A DNA stretch of 37,742 bases, from positions 1 through 37,742 of the forward strand of contig JAQVQL010000003.1 of NCBI GenBank assembly GCA_028701595.1. Reading direction: 5' to 3'. Positions 1-37,742 of this stretch are shown here, piece by piece (the stretch's first letter is position 1; each line of letters begins with the position of its first letter). The DNA comes from Herbinix sp. Its GTDB lineage: Bacteria > Bacillota > Clostridia > Lachnospirales > Lachnospiraceae. A program made the position numbers and the translations under genes. Below the pieces are notes generated by a model. That model saw only the letters and a list, made by a program, of their open reading frames with translations, was not told the origin of the DNA and did no database searches.

Positions 1-2
1 GC

Positions 3-128
3 CTTAAGAAAGTAAAGGAAATAATTATCGGTGGAGAAGCGTTTCCAATCACGCTTCTTGACACATTAAGGAAGCATAAATCACTAAAAATCTATAATGT
101 GTATGGTCCAACAGAGACTACTATTTAG
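3..128 (+). pseudogene. Upstream part of NRPS adenylation domain (A4-A5 region) ending at an in-frame TAG
   Basis: Frame of the 144..11084 ORF read upstream gives LKKVKEIIIGGEAFPITLLDTLRKHKSLKIYNVYGPTETTI* then STFKDMTRDD; TAG at 126-128 is where A domains normally have W/C (YGPTETTIW). Gene continues off the left edge. Confidence 0.85.
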
Positions 129-143
129 TCTACATTCAAAGAT

Positions 144-3100
144 ATGACCAGAGATGATAGATTGAATATTGGTAAGCCAATCGCCAATACTCAGATTTAT
201 ATCCTTGACCAGGAAAGCAAGCTGCAGCCAATTGGTGTACCTGGTGAAATCTGTATCGGAGGTAAAGGACTCGCAAGAGGTTATCTCAATAATTCGGAAT
301 TGACAGCTGAGAAGTTTATTTCAAATCCTTATAATAAAGACGAATTAATATATAAGACTGGTGATTTAGCCGCTTGGCTTCCAGATGGCACGATTGATTT
401 CATTGGACGAAATGATAATCAAATCAAGTTAAGGGGTTTTCGAATTGAGCTAGGAGAGATAGAAAACGTCTTATTGAGTTATCCGTTAGTTAAGGAAGCA
501 GCAGTATGTGTATGCTATAAAAATGATGATCCTTTTATTTGTGCATATATTGTAGGCGATTTTGATGTAGATACAAAAAATGTTAGAGACTATCTATCAA
601 AATCGTTACCATTTTATATGATACCCGCATGTTTTGTTAAGCTAGACAGTATGCTGTTAAATGCAAACGGTAAGATTAATCGAAAAGCATTGCCGCAGCC
701 AGATTTTAATCAAAGTTATAATGATATGGAGTTTATAGAGCCACAGACAGATGTGGAAAAAAAATTATGTGACATTTGGAAAGAGACATTAGGAATTGAA
801 AAGGTTGGAATAAGCAATAGCTTTTTTGAATTAGGTGGTCATTCCATTTCAATGATGAATGTTATTGCGAAAATTGATAAAGCATTTAAAGTCGATATAA
901 GGTTTGATGATTTTATACAAAATAGTACGGTTGCTGCATTGGCATCAATTATTTCTGAAGGTGATACGACTTATTGCAATAAAGTCGTATATCCAGAGGC
1001 GACTCCTGACTTGGAACATATGCATAATCCATTCCCTTTGACTGATGTACAGATGGCTTATTTTATGGGAAGAAATGATCAATTTGAGATGGGGGGGATC
1101 TCTACCCATGTATATGTTGAAATTGAAACTGAAATGGAGATTGAGAGATTAAATAGAAGTTTAAATCAAGTCATTGCTCGACATCCAATGATGCGAGCAA
1201 TTTTATTGCCAAATGGGCAACAACAAATTTTAGAAAGAACTGCAGACTATAAGATTATTGAAACAGACTTAATGGAATTTAGTACGATCGAACAGAAACA
1301 ATATATTGAAAAAAATCGAGAAATAATGTCACATTATATATTTCAAACAGACATATGGCCTTTATTTGATTTCAAATCTTTCAAATTGAATGATCACAAG
1401 AATTATCTTTGTATAGGTCTAGACCTGATAATAGCGGATGCTTTTAGCTATCAGATTATTTTTCATGAATTAGTTACTTTCTATAATAATCCTGAGATTG
1501 TGCTTCCTGAGCTGAAGTTTAGTTTCAGAGATTATATTATGTCATATATGAACTTTAAAGGTTCTGATACTTATGCAAGAGATAAAGAATATTGGTTAAG
1601 TAAGCTCCCTGATTTTCCAAATGCTCCTGCAGTGCCATTGAAAGCTGATCCAAGCAAGATTACAAAGCCTCATTTTAAGCGTCACAGCAAAGTGATTTAC
1701 AAGAATGAGTGGGAAATCATTAAGCAAAAAGGACGTTTACATGGTGTCACACCATCTACTATTTTATGTACTTTATACGCTCAGGTATTATCATTCTGGA
1801 GTAACCAGCCTCATATGGCAATCAATCTGACTGTATTCAATCGTTATCCATTCCATGCTGATGTACAAAAAATCGTAGGAGATTTCACTTCTGTAATACT
1901 TTTGGATATTGATCTATCTGTTGGATCTTTTTGGGAATGTGCAAAGCAGGTTCAGAGCATATTAGTAAATGCATTAGAACATAGACACTATGATGGTATC
2001 GAATTCATCAGAGAAATTGCTAAATATCGTAATGAAGGAACAAAAGCATCTATGCCATTCGTGTTCACCAGTGCTTTATTCGGAAACTCGGACAGTCTTG
2101 ATTCGTGCTTAAATGAGATGGGTAAATTTAAAATGGGAATCAATCAGACTTCCCAAGTTTATATAGATCATCAGGTTACTGAAGTGAATGGAAATCTAAA
2201 CATTGTTTTTGATTATGTTGATGAATTATTTGAATCAAATGTAATAGATACAATGTTTAGCCAATACATCACTGTGTTGGATGGTTTGATGAATGATACC
2301 ATAAAAATTGAGATTAGGAAAAAAGATAGTAATACGATTGAAAAATATGATGATACAACTGGATATAATGAACCATCCACATTAAATGGGTTATTTAAAG
2401 AACAAGTGAAAAAGAATCCTGATAACATTGCAGTTATATTCCAGGAGGATAACATTACATATAAGGAACTTGATAAAAAATCGAATCAAGTTGCATGTTA
2501 TCTAATGAATCAGGGAGTGGTGCGAGGAGATTATGTAGGTGTATTAGGGCATAGATGTATAGATACGATTGTTACTATATTAGGTATACTGAAAGCAGGC
2601 GCTGCGTATGTTCCAGTAGATCCTAGCTATCCGGATGATAGAAAGAAGTATATCCTTGATCATAGTAACTGTAAGCTAATGCTTACACCTGATCTATATC
2701 TAGATCAAGAATTAGATTCTTATGAGTCAAATGAGGTAGGTATCTACAACAATTATCAAGATTCAGCGTATGTAATTTATACATCAGGAAGTACGGGTAA
2801 ACCGAAGGGAGTAGTCATATCCCATGCAGCAGCAGCAAATACGATTATCGATATAAATAATAAGTTCATGGTGAATGAGTCGGATCGAATTATAGGTCTA
2901 TCCTCTATGTGTTTTGATCTTTCGGTATATGACATCTTTGGAACACTAGTATCAGGAGCTACTCTTGTAATGGTGGTAGATCAGAGAGATATATTGAATT
3001 TAGCTCATATTGTAGAAGATAATAACATAACGATATGGAATTCTGTGCCAGCGATAATGGATATGATGGTAGAAAACCTAGAGAGCGGATATAGTTATAC

Positions 3101-6100
3101 TAGTCTCAGACTTGTGTTGCTAAGTGGTGATTGGATACCTCTAAAATTACCTAATAAAGTACGCAGCAGTTTTGTAAATGCACAGGTTATTAGCCTTGGA
3201 GGAGCGACAGAAGCATCTATATGGTCAATCTATTATCCAATCAAAGAGGTCAAAGACGAGTGGAGAAGCATTCCTTATGGAAGACCTCTGGAAAATCAGA
3301 AATTCTATGTACTAAACTATAATAAGGAATTATGTCCGATAGGAGTTCCAGGCGAATTATATATTGGCGGCGTTGGTGTAGCAAAAGGTTACATTAATGA
3401 TGAAGGAAAGACAAAGGCATCCTTTATCATGCATCCACAATTCGGATATCTTTATAAGACAGGTGATTATGGAGTGCTACATGCTTGTGAAGATGAGGAT
3501 ACTGCATTTATTGAATTCTTGGGTAGAAAAGACCAACAGGTGAAAATCAGGGGCTATAGAGTTGAGCTTGGTGAAATTGAAAGTAGACTTCTGGAACATG
3601 AGTTTATAAAAAATGCAGTTGTAATAGATAATGTGGATACAACAGGACATAAATATCTCTGTGCTTATTATGTGGCTGAAGATGACATAACCTCAGAAGA
3701 AATAAAGATATATCTACGGAGGCAGCTGCCAGATTATATGGTACCACAGTATTTTGTTGAAATGGATGAAATTCCTCTTACAGCAAATGGAAAGATTAAT
3801 CGTAGTGCACTTCCTGCTTTGGAGATTTGTGCAAATGTTGACAATGATCAATATGTCGCGCCAAGAGACGAACTAGAGTGTAGACTCGTTGATATTTGGA
3901 GAGAAGTCTTAGACATAGAAAGAATTAGTGTTAAGGATAACTTCTTTGAACTTGGCGGTAATTCAATTTTGATGGTACAGATAGTGACCAAGATCAATAG
4001 GGAATTCGATGTTAATATCAGCTTTAAGTTATTTGTCGAAAAAAACAATATCGAAAATGTTGCTGAACTAATAAGAAATAGCAGTGCTAAGTGTAAAAAT
4101 GTGACTTATCCTTTGGTAGAACCAGATCCTGCTAATATGCATGTACCATTTCCATTGACTGAAGTACAGACCGCGTATCTTCTTGGTAGAGAGAATCTGT
4201 TTGAGATCGGTGATGTAGCAACACATGCCTATATGGAGATGGAGTCACAACTCGATATAGAGAGGTTCAATTATGCTCTTCAAATGGTGATTGATTACAA
4301 TCCTATGATGAGAGCAGTGATCTATCCAAATGGTACGCAACAGATTCTTGAGGTTGTACCAGAATATAAGATAAATATTGTCGATTTATCGAATGCGACA
4401 AGTGAGGAAAAGGACAAGCATATTATTAAAGAAAGAGAGCGTATGTCCCATTATGTATTTAAGACGGATGTATGGCCGTTGTTTGAATTCAAAGCGTTTA
4501 AGCTTTCAGCAGATAGTTATTATCTGTGTATGGGTTTTGATATGTTGATTGCCGATGGTGCGAGTATACAGCTCATAAATAGGATGCTTGTTAAATTCTA
4601 TAATAATAGTAATGCTATCATACCAAAAGTGGATTTTACTTTCAGAGATTATATGCTTGCCTATAATAAATTCAAACAATCTGAAATCTATCAAGAAGAC
4701 AAGAAATATTGGCTTGATAAGTTAGAAGAATTTCCACAAGCACCTGCATTGCCTTTAAGAATGGATACGGCTGATGTTAAAAAACCTCATTTTAAACGTT
4801 TTAGAAAAGAATTCACCAGTGAGAGATGGGATTGTTTAAAGAAAAAGGCAATGGAAAACAGTATTACCCCTTCCGCGCTGTTAAGTACAGTTTATGCTGA
4901 AGTATTGGCATTTTGGAGCAATCAGCCGCATTTAGCAATTAATCTTACAGTATTTAATCGTTATCCATTCCACGAAGATGTATATAGCGTTGTGGGTGAT
5001 TTTACTTCAGTCATGCTGCTTGATATTGATCTTTTACCAAATACTACATTCTGGGATAGGGCAAAACGAATACAAGATACGCTTGTTGCTTCATTAGAGC
5101 ATCGCCATTATGACGGTATCGAGTTTATCAGAGAAATTACCAAATATCATGAACTGGGTACGAAAGCTGCTATGCCTATTGTATTTACAAGTATGCTATT
5201 TGGAAATAAGAACAGCAATAGTGAAAGCCTCAGTGGAATGGGCAATGTGAAAATGGGAGCGGGGCAGACTTCTCAAGTTTATATCGACTATCAAGCCAAT
5301 GAAATAGATGGGCAATTGACTGTTACATGGGATTATGTAGAAGACATATTCAATCCTGAAGTTATCAGTACAATGTTTGATCAATATATTAAGATATTGG
5401 ATTTTCTAATGGATGAATCTGTTGAATATAGGCCAGAGGTCGATGCTTCCGTAAAAGCTTTGTATGAAAAATACAATGATACAAAAGAAGATATTCCACA
5501 ATGTACTCTTCACGGAATGTTTGAATCTCAAGTGCAAAGAGTCCCTGACCATACAGCAGTTGTTTTTGAGGATGATAGCATTACTTATAGAGAACTTAGC
5601 GAAAAATCAAATCAGATTGCTCACTATCTAAGGGAACAGGGAGTAGAGTCAGGAAGTTTAGTTGGAGTATTAGGTCAACGTTGTATTGAAACGATTATTA
5701 ATATATTAGGAATCATAAAAGCTAGTGCTGCTTATGTTCCTATTGATCCAGGATATCCTGAAGAAAGAAAAGAATATATTTTTAAGAATAGTGAGTGTAA
5801 GTTTTTCATTACTCCAGATTTATATCAAGAGAAGCGTATCAATGAATATCCAATCAGCGAACTAGATATTAATGTAAGCTGTGATGATATGGCATATGTG
5901 ATCTATACATCGGGAAGCACAGGAAGACCAAAAGGTGTGACTATTTCTCATGGAGCAGCTGCCAACACGATTCACGATATTAATCGAAAATTTAGCGTCA
6001 ATGAGAATGATCGGATCATAGGACTTTCATCTATGTGCTTCGACCTCTCCGTTTACGATATATTTGGATCATTAGGTTCTGGAGCTACGCTAGTTATGGT

Positions 6101-9100
6101 AGAAGATCAAAGAGATGTTGTCAAATTGATGGATACATTACAGGAAAAAGAAATCACAGTATGGAATTCTGTACCAGCTATTATGGATATGCTGATAGAA
6201 AACCTAGATATGAATAACACAAATAGTAGCCTACGATTAGTGATGTTAAGCGGAGATTGGATTCCATTGAGACTTCCTGAAAAAGTAAAGCATAGTTTTG
6301 AAAATGCTACTTTGATCAGCTTAGGCGGAGCAACAGAGGCATCCATTTGGTCGATTTACTATCCGATTATGGAAGTAGATGAAAATTGGAAGAGTATACC
6401 TTATGGCATCCCGCTTGCAAACCAGAAATTCTATGTATTGAATTATGAAATGAATTTATGCCCAATTGGTGTTCAAGGCGAATTGTATATTGGCGGAGTT
6501 GGTTTATCTAAAGGTTACATAAACGAGGAAGAAAAAACAAAAGGAGCATTCATTCATCATCCGATTTATGGAGACTTGTACAGAACTGGGGACTATGGTG
6601 TATTACAACATCATAATGAGAACCAAACGTATATTGAGTTTTTAGGCAGAAAGGATCAGCAGGTAAAGATCAGGGGTTACCGTGTAGAGCTTGGTGAGAT
6701 TGAAAGTCAATTAATGGAGCATGATTTTGTTAGAAACGCGGTTGTGTTGGACAGAGTCAACTCTCGAGGTCAAAAATATCTGTGTGCATATTATATTCCA
6801 GAAGAAGAAGTATCACCCGAAGAGTTAAAAATATATTTGTTAAGAAGACTTTCAGATTATATGGTTCCTATGCAATTTGTGGAGGTTGAAGATATTCCAT
6901 TAACTGCAAATGGAAAGGTGAATCGTAAAGCTTTGTTGGAATGTGCAAATACATTAAACGAAAGCGAAGATAATTATATTTCACCAAGAAATGAAACGGA
7001 AGCTAGATTAGCTGAGATATGGAGTGAAGTGCTAGGAGTTGAACACATAGGAATCAGAGACAGTTTCTTTGAACTTGGAGGAAACTCCATATTAATGGTA
7101 CAAGCAAGGATTCTAATCAGTAAAGAGTATAAAGTTGATATTAGCTTGAGGGATTTCTTCGAGAATAATACTCTTGAAAAGCTTGTAATATTAATGAGTA
7201 CAAAGAAGGGCACCAGTCAAGATGTTATTTATCCTGAAGTAGAGCCCACTCCTGAACATATGTATGAAAGATTTCCACTGACCGCTGTTCAGACTGCATA
7301 CCTTATGGGACGTGACAGCCAATTTGAGATGGGTGGAGTATCAACACATGTCTACATGGAGTTTGAGACTACATTAGATATGGAACGTTTCAAAAAGAGT
7401 CTTCAAAAAGTTATTGATAGACATCCGATGTTAAGAACAGTTATTTTCAGTGATGGAAGTCAACAGGTTCTTGATAGTGTCCCTGAATATGAGATAAAAA
7501 TTAGTGATATTTCTAATTTATCGGATGAAGAAAAAAATCAAAAAATTATTGTTGAAAGAAATAGAAAATCGCACCATATATTTAAAACCGATGTATGGCC
7601 GTTATTTGATATATCTGCATTTAAACTGAATGATAACACAAATTACTTATTTATGGAATTGGATATGTTAATCGCTGATGGTGCAAGTATGCAGATTATT
7701 TCAAAAGAGTTAATGGATTATTATCAGAATATGAATGTAAATCTCCCTGCAATTAACTTCACTTACAGAGATTACATTCTTGCTTTGAATGATTTTAAGA
7801 CTTCACCAGTTTATTTTAGTGATAAAGATTATTGGATGAGTAAGCTTGAGGATTTCCCGAATGCGCCAGCACTTCCTCTGAAACAGGAACCATCTTTGAT
7901 TACAAAACCAACATTCCGACGCTTAAGTAGAGTGTTTGATAAGAATGATTGGAATGTAATGAAGAAAGTTGCACAGGAAAAAGGAATCACACCTTCTGCA
8001 TTATTATGTACTGCATACGCACAAGTGCTCGCATATTGGAGTAATCAGCCTCATATGGCTATTAATCTGACCGTGTTTAACCGCTATCCATTTCATAAGG
8101 ATGTGAATAAAATAGTAGGTGATTTTACATCTGTCATGTTGCTTGACATTCAACTTACTGAATCTGTATCATTTTGGGAAAATGCTGTTAATATACAAAA
8201 AACATTATTTGATGCTTTGGAACACAGACATTATGATGGCATTGAATTTATCAGAGAGCTTACAAGATATAGAAACTATGGTACGAAAGCTATCATGCCG
8301 ATTGTATTTACCAGTATGCTTTTTGATTCAAATAGTGATAGTGCTGATGAAGAACAAGACTTAGGTGAAGTTAAAATGTCGGTTAGCCAGACTTCACAGG
8401 TTTACGTTGATTATCAGGTTATGGAACGAAATGGAAGACTTTCGGTTACATGGGACTGCGTGGATGGACTATTTGAGGATGAAGTAATCAATTCAATGTT
8501 CTCCCAATATGTAAGTATTTTGGAGAAGCTGATTGTAGATACAAAAGAATATTGTATCGAGCTCGATGAGAAAAATGTACAATTACTAGAAAAGTATAAT
8601 TCTTCTGAATCAGAGATAGAATTACATACTTTGCATGAAATGTTTACCGAGCGATCAAAAAAACAACCTGATCAAATAGCCATAGAATACGGTGAGGATT
8701 ATATTACATATCAGCAATTAGATAAGGAGTCCAATAGGGTAGCAAATTATTTGAGAACTATCGGTATTGAAAGAAATGATTATGTGGGAGTCCTATGTAA
8801 ACGTAGGATTCATACCTTGATTAACATTATAGGAATCTTAAAGGCAGGAGCTGCTTATGTACCAATCGATCCAGATTATCCAGAAGAACGTAAGAACTAC
8901 ATTCTAGATCATAGTAATTGTAAATGTATTTTGTCAGTGGATATGGAAGATATTTATTCTGATAGTTCTGTTGAAAACATAAATACATTGAATGATGTAG
9001 CATACGTAATATATACGTCTGGAAGCACAGGGAAGCCAAAGGGAGTCATAATCACCCATGGTGCGGCTGCGAACACAATACTTGATATCAATAAAAAGTT

Positions 9101-11084
9101 CAATGTATGTGAAAAGGATAGGCTAATTGGGATATCATCAATGTGTTTTGACTTATCTGTTTATGATATTTTTGGAGCATTGTGTTGTGGAGCGACATTG
9201 GTTCTAATTAATGACCAAAGAGATGTGAGCAATATATACGATATAATAGAAAAGAAGAAAATCACGATATGGAATTCAGTACCTGCAATCATGGAGTTAA
9301 TGCTAGACAATATTGAAAGTGAAGAGGAAGAAGTGGACCTCTGGATTAGCAGAAAGACAGCGAGTAAGCAGAATCTCATTAAGAGAAATGATAATTTGAG
9401 ATTAGTTCTTTTAAGTGGAGATTGGATACCTTTGAATCTTCCTAAAAAGATATCCAACATATTCATCAATGCTGAAGTTATCAGTCTTGGTGGTGCTACA
9501 GAAGCTTCCATTTGGTCCATTTACTATCCGATTGAGGAAGTGGAGGAAGCGTGGAATAGTATTCCTTATGGTTATCCTTTAGCTAACCAAAATTTCTATA
9601 TCTTAAATTATGAAGGTAAGCAATGCCCAGTAGACGTAAAAGGAGAACTATATATTGGCGGGACTGGATTGGCGAATGGATATCTAAATGATATAGAAAA
9701 AACAAATAGCGCATTTATTGAGTCAAAACAGTATGGAAGATTATACAAAACTGGAGATTATGGAGTTATGAGAGAGGAGGGATATATAGAATTCCTTGGA
9801 AGAAAAGATCATCAGGTGAAGTTAGGTGGTTATAGAGTGGAGTTAGGGGAAATCGAGAATTGCTTAAATGAATATAAAAAGATAAAAGCTTCTGCAGTAA
9901 TTGATTTGACCGATGATTCAAATAAGAAGTTTTTGTGTGCTTATTATGTTTCATCTCAAGAAATCGATGTAAGTGATCTACGTAGGCAGCTTTCTCTAAA
10001 ACTTCCAGAATATATGATACCTCAGTATTATATGCGAATAGAAGAAATTCCTCTTACGCCTAATGGAAAGAGAAACTTAAAAGTTTTTCCAAAGCCAGAT
10101 GGTAATCATGTCGAGAGAAAAGAATATGTTGCACCATCAAACGAGATGGAACAGAAGTTTGTGGAATTATGGAAAGATATTTTAAATATTGAATGTATCG
10201 GTGTAACTGACAATCTTATTGAATTAGGTGCAAGTTCAATTAATATCATGAGATTTATATCTGGAGTGATGAAAGAATATGGAGTAGAACTGTCAATTAG
10301 CAATTTACTACACACACCAACAATACAACAATGCACGTTACAAGTAATTCAATCAAGTATTGATGCGAGAGACTATTCCAGTGAGCTCAGTCTGTTAATA
10401 CCTGATGGTATAAAGACAAAGAATATTTTTTGCTTTCCTCCAATTGGCTCTGTCGGCATTGTTTATCGAAGGATGGCTGAGGTTCTGGAATCCTACGCAT
10501 TTTATAGTTTTAATTTTATAGAAAGTGATAACCGAATTGATGAATATATAAAGACGATTCAGTCCATTCAGCAAGAAGGACCATATATCTTATTTGGATA
10601 TTCTGCTGGAGGAAATCTGGCATTCGAAGTAGCAAAAGAACTAATCAATCATGGTTATGAGGTATCACATCTCATTCTATGGGATTCATACTTCATTGAC
10701 GAAATCAATAAGAATCGCATGACTGAAGAAGAAGGCAGGGATGCCGCAGATACAATGATAGAAGAATTTGTTAAAGAGAATGTTGAACTAATGCCTAATC
10801 TAAAGATATTAAAAGATTATTTCAGAAAGAAAATAATCAAATATATTGAATATCTTGATTATCTAGTTACTTCTGGTGAGGTTGATTCAAATATTCATTT
10901 GGTGAAAGCAGAGGAGGAGACGGAAGAAGCATTCGAAGGCAAGCAAATGAAATGGAAGGATTCTACAATGAAGCGTTTTTTCTTCTATAAAGGATATGGT
11001 ATACATAGTGAGATGTTAAAACTAGGATTCATTGAAAGAAACGCCGAAATTATGAGAAGTATACTAGAAGATGACGAACGCTAG
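144..11084 (+). CDS. Non-ribosomal peptide synthetase, A(C-terminal part)-PCP-Cy-A-PCP-Cy-A-PCP-Cy-A-PCP-TE
   Basis: Cy-type motifs FPLTxVQxAYxxGR, DxxxxDxxS (DLIIADAFS, DMLIADGAS x2), NLTVFNRYPFH and VGDFTSVxLLDI in three copies at about 990-2270, 4105-5400 and 7225-8540; A motifs YTSGSTGxPKG, GGATEASIWS, YKTGDYG, GRKDxQVKxxGYRVELGEIE, NGK; PCP motifs FFELGGxSI x3 and LIELGASSI; C-terminal TE with GYSAGG. The ATG at 144 is probably not the native start (frame is open upstream apart from one TAG). Confidence 0.95.
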   Translation: MTRDDRLNIGKPIANTQIYILDQESKLQPIGVPGEICIGGKGLARGYLNNSELTAEKFISNPYNKDELIYKTGDLAAWLPDGTIDFIGRNDNQIKLRGFRIELGEIENVLLSYPLVKEAAVCVCYKNDDPFICAYIVGDFDVDTKNVRDYLSKSLPFYMIPACFVKLDSMLLNANGKINRKALPQPDFNQSYNDMEFIEPQTDVEKKLCDIWKETLGIEKVGISNSFFELGGHSISMMNVIAKIDKAFKVDIRFDDFIQNSTVAALASIISEGDTTYCNKVVYPEATPDLEHMHNPFPLTDVQMAYFMGRNDQFEMGGISTHVYVEIETEMEIERLNRSLNQVIARHPMMRAILLPNGQQQILERTADYKIIETDLMEFSTIEQKQYIEKNREIMSHYIFQTDIWPLFDFKSFKLNDHKNYLCIGLDLIIADAFSYQIIFHELVTFYNNPEIVLPELKFSFRDYIMSYMNFKGSDTYARDKEYWLSKLPDFPNAPAVPLKADPSKITKPHFKRHSKVIYKNEWEIIKQKGRLHGVTPSTILCTLYAQVLSFWSNQPHMAINLTVFNRYPFHADVQKIVGDFTSVILLDIDLSVGSFWECAKQVQSILVNALEHRHYDGIEFIREIAKYRNEGTKASMPFVFTSALFGNSDSLDSCLNEMGKFKMGINQTSQVYIDHQVTEVNGNLNIVFDYVDELFESNVIDTMFSQYITVLDGLMNDTIKIEIRKKDSNTIEKYDDTTGYNEPSTLNGLFKEQVKKNPDNIAVIFQEDNITYKELDKKSNQVACYLMNQGVVRGDYVGVLGHRCIDTIVTILGILKAGAAYVPVDPSYPDDRKKYILDHSNCKLMLTPDLYLDQELDSYESNEVGIYNNYQDSAYVIYTSGSTGKPKGVVISHAAAANTIIDINNKFMVNESDRIIGLSSMCFDLSVYDIFGTLVSGATLVMVVDQRDILNLAHIVEDNNITIWNSVPAIMDMMVENLESGYSYTSLRLVLLSGDWIPLKLPNKVRSSFVNAQVISLGGATEASIWSIYYPIKEVKDEWRSIPYGRPLENQKFYVLNYNKELCPIGVPGELYIGGVGVAKGYINDEGKTKASFIMHPQFGYLYKTGDYGVLHACEDEDTAFIEFLGRKDQQVKIRGYRVELGEIESRLLEHEFIKNAVVIDNVDTTGHKYLCAYYVAEDDITSEEIKIYLRRQLPDYMVPQYFVEMDEIPLTANGKINRSALPALEICANVDNDQYVAPRDELECRLVDIWREVLDIERISVKDNFFELGGNSILMVQIVTKINREFDVNISFKLFVEKNNIENVAELIRNSSAKCKNVTYPLVEPDPANMHVPFPLTEVQTAYLLGRENLFEIGDVATHAYMEMESQLDIERFNYALQMVIDYNPMMRAVIYPNGTQQILEVVPEYKINIVDLSNATSEEKDKHIIKERERMSHYVFKTDVWPLFEFKAFKLSADSYYLCMGFDMLIADGASIQLINRMLVKFYNNSNAIIPKVDFTFRDYMLAYNKFKQSEIYQEDKKYWLDKLEEFPQAPALPLRMDTADVKKPHFKRFRKEFTSERWDCLKKKAMENSITPSALLSTVYAEVLAFWSNQPHLAINLTVFNRYPFHEDVYSVVGDFTSVMLLDIDLLPNTTFWDRAKRIQDTLVASLEHRHYDGIEFIREITKYHELGTKAAMPIVFTSMLFGNKNSNSESLSGMGNVKMGAGQTSQVYIDYQANEIDGQLTVTWDYVEDIFNPEVISTMFDQYIKILDFLMDESVEYRPEVDASVKALYEKYNDTKEDIPQCTLHGMFESQVQRVPDHTAVVFEDDSITYRELSEKSNQIAHYLREQGVESGSLVGVLGQRCIETIINILGIIKASAAYVPIDPGYPEERKEYIFKNSECKFFITPDLYQEKRINEYPISELDINVSCDDMAYVIYTSGSTGRPKGVTISHGAAANTIHDINRKFSVNENDRIIGLSSMCFDLSVYDIFGSLGSGATLVMVEDQRDVVKLMDTLQEKEITVWNSVPAIMDMLIENLDMNNTNSSLRLVMLSGDWIPLRLPEKVKHSFENATLISLGGATEASIWSIYYPIMEVDENWKSIPYGIPLANQKFYVLNYEMNLCPIGVQGELYIGGVGLSKGYINEEEKTKGAFIHHPIYGDLYRTGDYGVLQHHNENQTYIEFLGRKDQQVKIRGYRVELGEIESQLMEHDFVRNAVVLDRVNSRGQKYLCAYYIPEEEVSPEELKIYLLRRLSDYMVPMQFVEVEDIPLTANGKVNRKALLECANTLNESEDNYISPRNETEARLAEIWSEVLGVEHIGIRDSFFELGGNSILMVQARILISKEYKVDISLRDFFENNTLEKLVILMSTKKGTSQDVIYPEVEPTPEHMYERFPLTAVQTAYLMGRDSQFEMGGVSTHVYMEFETTLDMERFKKSLQKVIDRHPMLRTVIFSDGSQQVLDSVPEYEIKISDISNLSDEEKNQKIIVERNRKSHHIFKTDVWPLFDISAFKLNDNTNYLFMELDMLIADGASMQIISKELMDYYQNMNVNLPAINFTYRDYILALNDFKTSPVYFSDKDYWMSKLEDFPNAPALPLKQEPSLITKPTFRRLSRVFDKNDWNVMKKVAQEKGITPSALLCTAYAQVLAYWSNQPHMAINLTVFNRYPFHKDVNKIVGDFTSVMLLDIQLTESVSFWENAVNIQKTLFDALEHRHYDGIEFIRELTRYRNYGTKAIMPIVFTSMLFDSNSDSADEEQDLGEVKMSVSQTSQVYVDYQVMERNGRLSVTWDCVDGLFEDEVINSMFSQYVSILEKLIVDTKEYCIELDEKNVQLLEKYNSSESEIELHTLHEMFTERSKKQPDQIAIEYGEDYITYQQLDKESNRVANYLRTIGIERNDYVGVLCKRRIHTLINIIGILKAGAAYVPIDPDYPEERKNYILDHSNCKCILSVDMEDIYSDSSVENINTLNDVAYVIYTSGSTGKPKGVIITHGAAANTILDINKKFNVCEKDRLIGISSMCFDLSVYDIFGALCCGATLVLINDQRDVSNIYDIIEKKKITIWNSVPAIMELMLDNIESEEEEVDLWISRKTASKQNLIKRNDNLRLVLLSGDWIPLNLPKKISNIFINAEVISLGGATEASIWSIYYPIEEVEEAWNSIPYGYPLANQNFYILNYEGKQCPVDVKGELYIGGTGLANGYLNDIEKTNSAFIESKQYGRLYKTGDYGVMREEGYIEFLGRKDHQVKLGGYRVELGEIENCLNEYKKIKASAVIDLTDDSNKKFLCAYYVSSQEIDVSDLRRQLSLKLPEYMIPQYYMRIEEIPLTPNGKRNLKVFPKPDGNHVERKEYVAPSNEMEQKFVELWKDILNIECIGVTDNLIELGASSINIMRFISGVMKEYGVELSISNLLHTPTIQQCTLQVIQSSIDARDYSSELSLLIPDGIKTKNIFCFPPIGSVGIVYRRMAEVLESYAFYSFNFIESDNRIDEYIKTIQSIQQEGPYILFGYSAGGNLAFEVAKELINHGYEVSHLILWDSYFIDEINKNRMTEEEGRDAADTMIEEFVKENVELMPNLKILKDYFRKKIIKYIEYLDYLVTSGEVDSNIHLVKAEEETEEAFEGKQMKWKDSTMKRFFFYKGYGIHSEMLKLGFIERNAEIMRSILEDDER
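990..4080 (+). other. NRPS module Cy1-A2-PCP2, predicted Cys
   Basis: Cy motifs as above; hand-aligned A-domain code D-L-Y-N-L-S-L-I-W-K (FDLSVYDIFG, TIWNSVPA, LVLLSGDW, ISLGGATEASIWS, NGK). Confidence 0.8.
4105..7200 (+). other. NRPS module Cy2-A3-PCP3, predicted Cys
   Basis: Code D-L-Y-N-M-S-L-I-W-K from FDLSVYDIFG, TVWNSVPA, LVMLSGDW, ISLGGATEASIWS, NGK. Confidence 0.8.
7225..10350 (+). other. NRPS module Cy3-A4-PCP4, predicted Cys
   Basis: Code D-L-Y-N-L-S-L-I-W-K; PCP core LIELGASSI retains the Ser. Confidence 0.78.
10400..11081 (+). other. Type I thioesterase domain
   Basis: KTKNIFCFPPIGSVGIVYRRMAEVL...YILFGYSAGGNLAFEVAKEL, alpha/beta hydrolase nucleophile elbow GYSAG at the NRPS C-terminus. 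Confidence 0.85.
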
Positions 11085-32735: not shown

Positions 32736-33735
32736 TAAGGAAGATAGAAAGCCTCTGATGGTAACCCGCGGATTAAAAAAGTATTATCCTGTGAGGGGTA
32801 CGACCATAGGTAAGAATAGCCCCGTTACACACGCCGTTGATGGCGTAGATTTTGAGATATATGAAGGAGAAACACTTGGCATTGTTGGTGAATCCGGTTG
32901 TGGCAAGTCTACTATTGGACGGCAAATTGTAGCCCTGGAGAAGCCTACTTCGGGGCATGTTCTATATCAGGGAGAATCGATATCAGAAATGTCCACAAGG
33001 CAACTTCGTAAAATCAGAACTCAATTACAGATGGTGTTTCAGGATTCAACATCATCATTAAACCCAAGAAAGCAGGTCTATGATATTCTGGCTGCTCCCA
33101 TGCTTTATCATGGAATTACCACGGGTGATAATCTAGATGGAGAAATCAACAGACTTTTAGACCTAGTTGGTCTACCAAAGTCTATGAAGCATAGATATCC
33201 TCACGAGTTTTCGGGAGGACAAAGGCAAAGGATTGGCATTGCTAAGGCTCTATCTGTAAAGCCAAGACTTATAGTATGTGATGAGCCTGTAAGTGCACTT
33301 GATGTATCAGTGCAGGCGCAAATACTAAATCTACTAAAGCAGCTACAGGATGAGTTCAAATTAACATATGTGTTTATTGCTCATGGATTGGGTGCGGTTC
33401 GCTATGTAAGTAGTCGGATTGCTATAATGTATCTTGGAAGAATTGTAGAAATCGCCAATACACAGGAGCTTTTTGATGACCCCGTACATCCCTATACCAA
33501 GGCTTTGTTCGATGCTTCGCCCATACCTGCCCCCAAGCTTCGGGGAAGAGAGAGAATAGTACTCAAAGGAGAAATCCCCTCATCGGTGAATCCTCCTAAG
33601 GGTTGCAGATTTCATACCAGATGTCCATATGCTATCCCATCGTGTGAGATTAATGACCCTCCGCTTATACCTGTTAAGCCCGGAAGTAATCATATGGCTG
33701 CTTGTCCGGTACTTTTGGCAGAAAGAGAAAGGTGA
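32728..33735 (+). CDS. Oligopeptide ABC transporter ATP-binding protein (OppF/DppF-like)
   Basis: [73 protein letters not shown]. Confidence 0.93.
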
Positions 33736-37630: not shown

Positions 37631-37742
37631 AATAAAATGCAATGAATAAATATACGAAATATAATGTATTTATTAACACAACTAAGAACACTCGTAACTA
37701 TATTAATAAGAGGTTCAAAGGATAATACGATATGAGGTGTAT

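Follow-up and report, generated by a model that had tools for sequence, protein, structure and literature searches.

An in-frame amber codon in a Herbinix sp. NRPS gene, very probably one base of a metagenome assembly fork

The window, by which we mean the whole stretch of 37,742 nucleotides that was analyzed, is derived from Herbinix sp. and begins inside the adenylation (A) domain of a nonribosomal peptide synthetase (NRPS), where an in-frame TAG codon is found close to the first base. The question that this codon raises is whether the synthetase is broken, whether the stop is read through, or whether it reflects the way in which the genome was assembled.

The amber codon and the two contigs that overlap at it

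In frame 3 the window reads KIYNVYGPTETTI, then TAG (126-128), then STFKDMTRDDR, and downstream of the TAG the frame is open to 11084 (3646 amino acids counted from the ATG at 144). This 10.9-kb frame has no further stop or frameshift, and its other 3646 codons are open. Two statements of the initial annotation are borne out here: the reading of frame 3 places the amber codon in frame, and inspection of the ATG at 144 reveals no good Shine-Dalgarno sequence. The ATG is located inside the adenylation domain and is not likely to be the true gene start.

Contig C185 (1-37742) and the window are one and the same, and window base 1 is a contig end. The assembly is a metagenome-derived draft of 379 contigs and 2.66 Mb that is 78.7% complete. 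A search of this assembly showed that the end of a second contig, C207 (33,106 bases), matches window positions 1-162 on the reverse strand; an end sequence common to two contigs is what an assembly fork is expected to give. Compared base by base, 161 of the 162 positions agree; the sole difference is window base 127, which is A in C185 and G in C207, and the codon at the amber site of C207 is TGG (Trp). On C207 no stop interrupts the 777 codons that begin at an ATG with a good ribosome-binding site, aaaagggagatgtatta, ahead of it; they encode a condensation domain and the larger part of an AMP-binding domain. The gene continues as the window ORF, one gene across both contigs, and C207 and C185 would adjoin in the chromosome. 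The features at this end of the window are:

1..162, + strand: overlap with the end of G000:C207 (bases 162-1, reverse strand), 126 identical bases, a mismatch at 127 and 35 identical bases
3..11084, + strand: 3' portion of a single NRPS gene; the 777 codons of its 5' portion, with a Shine-Dalgarno, the C domain and most of the A domain, are on C207:2332-2 (- strand)
126..128, + strand: in-frame TAG on C185, TGG (Trp) on C207; the ninth A-domain selectivity residue out of ten (GrsA position 331)
144..146, + strand: ATG that opens the mechanical 3646-aa ORF, the first ATG past the TAG; no Shine-Dalgarno; inside the A domain

Origin of the stop

Very probably the metagenome assembly graph forked at the amber codon, with the stop on one branch and Trp on the other, owing to a strain variant or to a read or assembly error, in a gene that is neither broken nor recoded. 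C207 reads TGG within 162 otherwise identical bases, which argues for a fork and against a broken or recoded gene. An assembly or strain-specific change was among the options of the initial annotation, and the second contig supports it.

The overlap and its single mismatch have counterparts at other contig ends of this assembly. The overlap between C186 and C336 (223 bases) consists of 126 identical bases, one silent mismatch (ACT/ACA) and 96 more identical bases, and C117 and C183 have exactly 126 bases in common and then diverge. Together with the window's own pair, three contig pairs show exact 126-base sharing, a k-mer-sized identical stretch that recurs up to the fork base. Such a recurrent length of 126 would be the expected residue of a 127-mer graph at its forks. 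Since this geometry recurs elsewhere, the assembly appears to break at single-base forks of a k~127 graph, with the amber as the fork base. A counterpoint is the overlap of C260 and C217 (220 bases with 3 mismatches, silent or conservative), which departs from the exact pattern; it has another mismatch inside the 126 bases and was rejected as a further exact fork. In the contig-start comparison, contigs reading N were left out of the first batch. Where contig ends of this assembly overlap (L127/L122, L130/L125 and L132/L133), the mismatches number one or a few.

A graph mechanism behind the C185/C207 break could have operated as follows. Reads with G (Trp) and reads with A (stop) would have had the preceding 126 bases in common, and the assembler would have extended the upstream contig, C207, by 36 bases along the G branch and opened a new contig, C185, on the A branch. 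In this subunit the A domain of the first module is of glycine type, Trp being its residue at pocket position 331, and the A base would be either a nonsense allele in part of the population or a read or assembly error. Such assemblers fragment, or take a consensus and collapse, where near-identical strains differ (PMC11443906). The present case resembles strain-variant forks of de Bruijn graph metagenome assemblies in the k-mer-sized identical stretch in neighbouring contigs and in the difference at the fork base, but unlike in the usual fork this base makes a stop codon and thus looks biological.

Another question is which of the two bases is right. Among the 53 codons of the overlap only this Trp codon becomes a stop by a transition, and 4.8% of all single changes within these codons give a stop. 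On a genome with a true TAG, an error to G would have to strike one base of 162 with one change of three, a chance that we estimate at about 1 in 486, and G is hard to explain as an error since it would need the specific change that restores the expected residue. The intact (TGG) allele is presumably the functional one. The A branch runs on for 37 kb and the G branch stops 35 bases past the fork; A, being on the long branch, is not obviously a minor variant.

One explanation for the A is a genuine nonsense allele for which the population is polymorphic: some cells would have an intact synthetase and others a truncated one that yields no product. This fits the other forks of the assembly, where the differences are silent or conservative, as is to be expected of true strain variants, and the survival of both bases into k~127 contigs, for which more than one read is usually required. 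Yet nonsense changes are rare among real segregating SNPs, and about 5% of random single changes in the overlap make a stop. The other explanation is a sequencing or assembly error at the contig end, with the stop present in no cell. The site is 127 bases from the contig end and at a graph fork, the rest of the 10.9-kb ORF is intact and the other contig has Trp, all of which an error would account for; however, an isolated error would usually have been discarded ahead of the longest k-mer step, and what follows on the A branch is a long contig. We would give allele and error about equal weight, each only slightly short of an even chance. That a nonsense allele of this PKS-NRPS synthetase segregates naturally, so that the sample contains both cells that make the secondary metabolite and cells that do not, is a tentative suggestion to which we assign somewhat less than even probability.

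It is very unlikely that the synthetase is a fixed pseudogene, or that two genes are split at the A domain. The stop as it is read in the window alone would suggest so, but C207 reads through, the ATG at 144 is without a ribosome-binding site and would start inside the A domain, no A-domain match from 12 related genomes was seen to be split here (one has a TAA somewhere inside), and the extracted A5 stretches read through. A pseudogene would be expected to carry the disabling change in all copies, or further decay; C207 has Trp and the frame is otherwise clean. The two-piece pseudogene proposed in the initial annotation is therefore not supported as a fixed state, C207 being intact, and the claim that the codon decides whether the whole cluster is functional was overstated, since the assembly also contains the gene in intact form. 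The contig search for relatives gave a single one, L051, with 36% identity, and in 60 related genomes (the window's own excluded) nothing exceeded 35% over the full query, with short A-domain pieces of up to 41%. As only distant relatives were found, there was no same-species copy comparable at base 127. Viral contigs scanned with either base at 127 gave no match.

Amber readthrough or recoding, by a suppressor tRNA or pyrrolysine, has the in-frame TAG in its favor and nothing more, and is so improbable that it can practically be dismissed: TAG ends 8 of the 21 window genes, this synthetase included (11084), with another stop mostly a few codons on; release factor 1 is present and intact on C353; the CUA anticodon occurs in none of 33 tRNAs, which is weak alone because tRNAs for Trp, Phe, Tyr and Ile are missing from the set; and the match to the pyrrolysyl-tRNA synthetase model reaches 22.8 bits against a cut-off of 178. 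Readthrough, which the initial annotation had raised together with a search for tRNA-CUA, thus finds neither that tRNA nor PylS, neither TAG avoidance nor RF1 loss, in this incomplete genome. A candidate internal TGA in release factor 1 was rejected, as it is the gene's own stop.

The amber is best read as an ordinary assembly fork at a strain variant or an error; the data do not show a broken gene and give no sign of recoding. A false alarm is thereby removed: the cluster should not be dismissed as a pseudogene, and this TAG is no basis for claims about the genetic code. Because contig ends of this assembly carry single-base disagreements, stops and frameshifts within ~130-220 bases of the ends need a cross-contig check. 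A dispersed repeat lies at the opposite end of the window (37661-37740): copies of 50-72 bases, 80-90% identical, occur on C186, C301, C309 and C86.

Substrate pocket and the joined PKS-NRPS cluster

By A-domain numbering from an alignment to gramicidin synthetase 1 (1AMU), the amber codon corresponds to GrsA position 331, which is one of the ten pocket residues and does not belong to the A5 core. In the aligned A domains of this cluster and its relatives the position is occupied by W, D, C, H, F, S, Y, A or G. The description of the codon as the conserved Trp of A5 is thus correct only in part: this is a variable selectivity position and not a conserved A5 residue, though Trp is usual there in Gly- and Cys-type A domains.

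The pocket residues DILQIGVIW are read from C207 and K517 from the window. The closest relatives are DILQLGVVWK in L051, from an uncultured Clostridia draft genome, and DILQLGMVWK in L056, from the same genus; both have Trp at 331. DILQLGMIWK is listed among Gly-activating domains, and Trp331 is treated as Gly/Cys-type, derived from Gly domains (PMC12283262). At the level of sequence the joined code (DILQIGVIW with K517) agrees with the pattern DILQ.G..WK of glycine-activating domains, and glycine is the predicted substrate of the split module. Trp331 is common to C207 with the window, L051, L056 and the listed domains, as in the glycine-type code DILQLGxxWK, but Ile replaces Leu299 here and Val is found at 322, and the substrate is a prediction only.

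The downstream part of the subunit contains the following features:

1422..1448, + strand: DLIIADAFS, the DxxxxDxxS motif of the first cyclisation-type condensation domain
2883..3860, + strand: A domain, code DLYNLSLIWK (Cys type)
6009..6983, + strand: A domain, code DLYNMSLIWK (Cys type)
9150..10130, + strand: A domain, code DLYNLSLIWK (Cys type)
10422..10979, + strand: C-terminal thioesterase domain, followed by the terminating TAG of the gene (11082-11084)

The DxxxxDxxS cyclisation motifs are found in three successive modules of the window (1422-1448, 4539-4565 and 7662-7688). Three cyclisation/Cys modules followed by a thioesterase look like the source of three thiazoline-type rings, which the product may contain.

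Joined together, C207 and C185 form a much larger PKS-NRPS system than the window shows. Besides the Gly-type module that is split between C207 and the window, the NRPS A-domain codes of the two contigs include DAWTIAAVCK, which is of Phe type (GrsA's own code is DAWTIAAICK), DVWHFSLVDK, which we take to be of Ser type, and DFWNIGMVHK, presumably of Thr type. KS, KR, DH and carrier domains are found in the PKS proteins of C207 and the window; Pfam detects no acyltransferase in these proteins (L049 1-16751, G000:C207), and the cluster is possibly a trans-AT system. Also in the window are genes for a free-standing thioesterase and for ABC transporters. The sequence at the far end of C207 (~32900-33106) reads like part of a FabD-like acyltransferase and has no Pfam match.

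A radical SAM/B12 insert in a C207 adenylation domain

The most interesting by-product of this analysis is a radical SAM/B12 module inside a Phe-type A domain. In protein P0002 (C207:6968-11299, - strand; L006) the A domain with the code DAWTIAAVCK is interrupted between A2 and A3 by an insert of ~570 residues, with a radical SAM domain (CPFECAYC) first and a B12-binding domain after it. Searches for full-length relatives of the insert found none in 33 other genomes of the genus, where the unmodified insert was the query and only generic radical SAM matches were obtained, and none in 294 other genomes of the order, where the query was an insert fragment preceded by ~25 A-domain motif residues and the match used residues 22-306 only. 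No A domain interrupted by radical SAM turned up in a literature search on the subject. The same cluster encodes two separate radical SAM proteins:

G000:C207 11289-13013, - strand: radical SAM protein, 574 aa; resembles B12-dependent radical SAM families
G000:C207 30756-32354, - strand: radical SAM protein, 532 aa

The 532-aa protein has the opposite order to the insert, with a B12-like region before the radical SAM domain, the match on the B12 side being weak (E 0.004).
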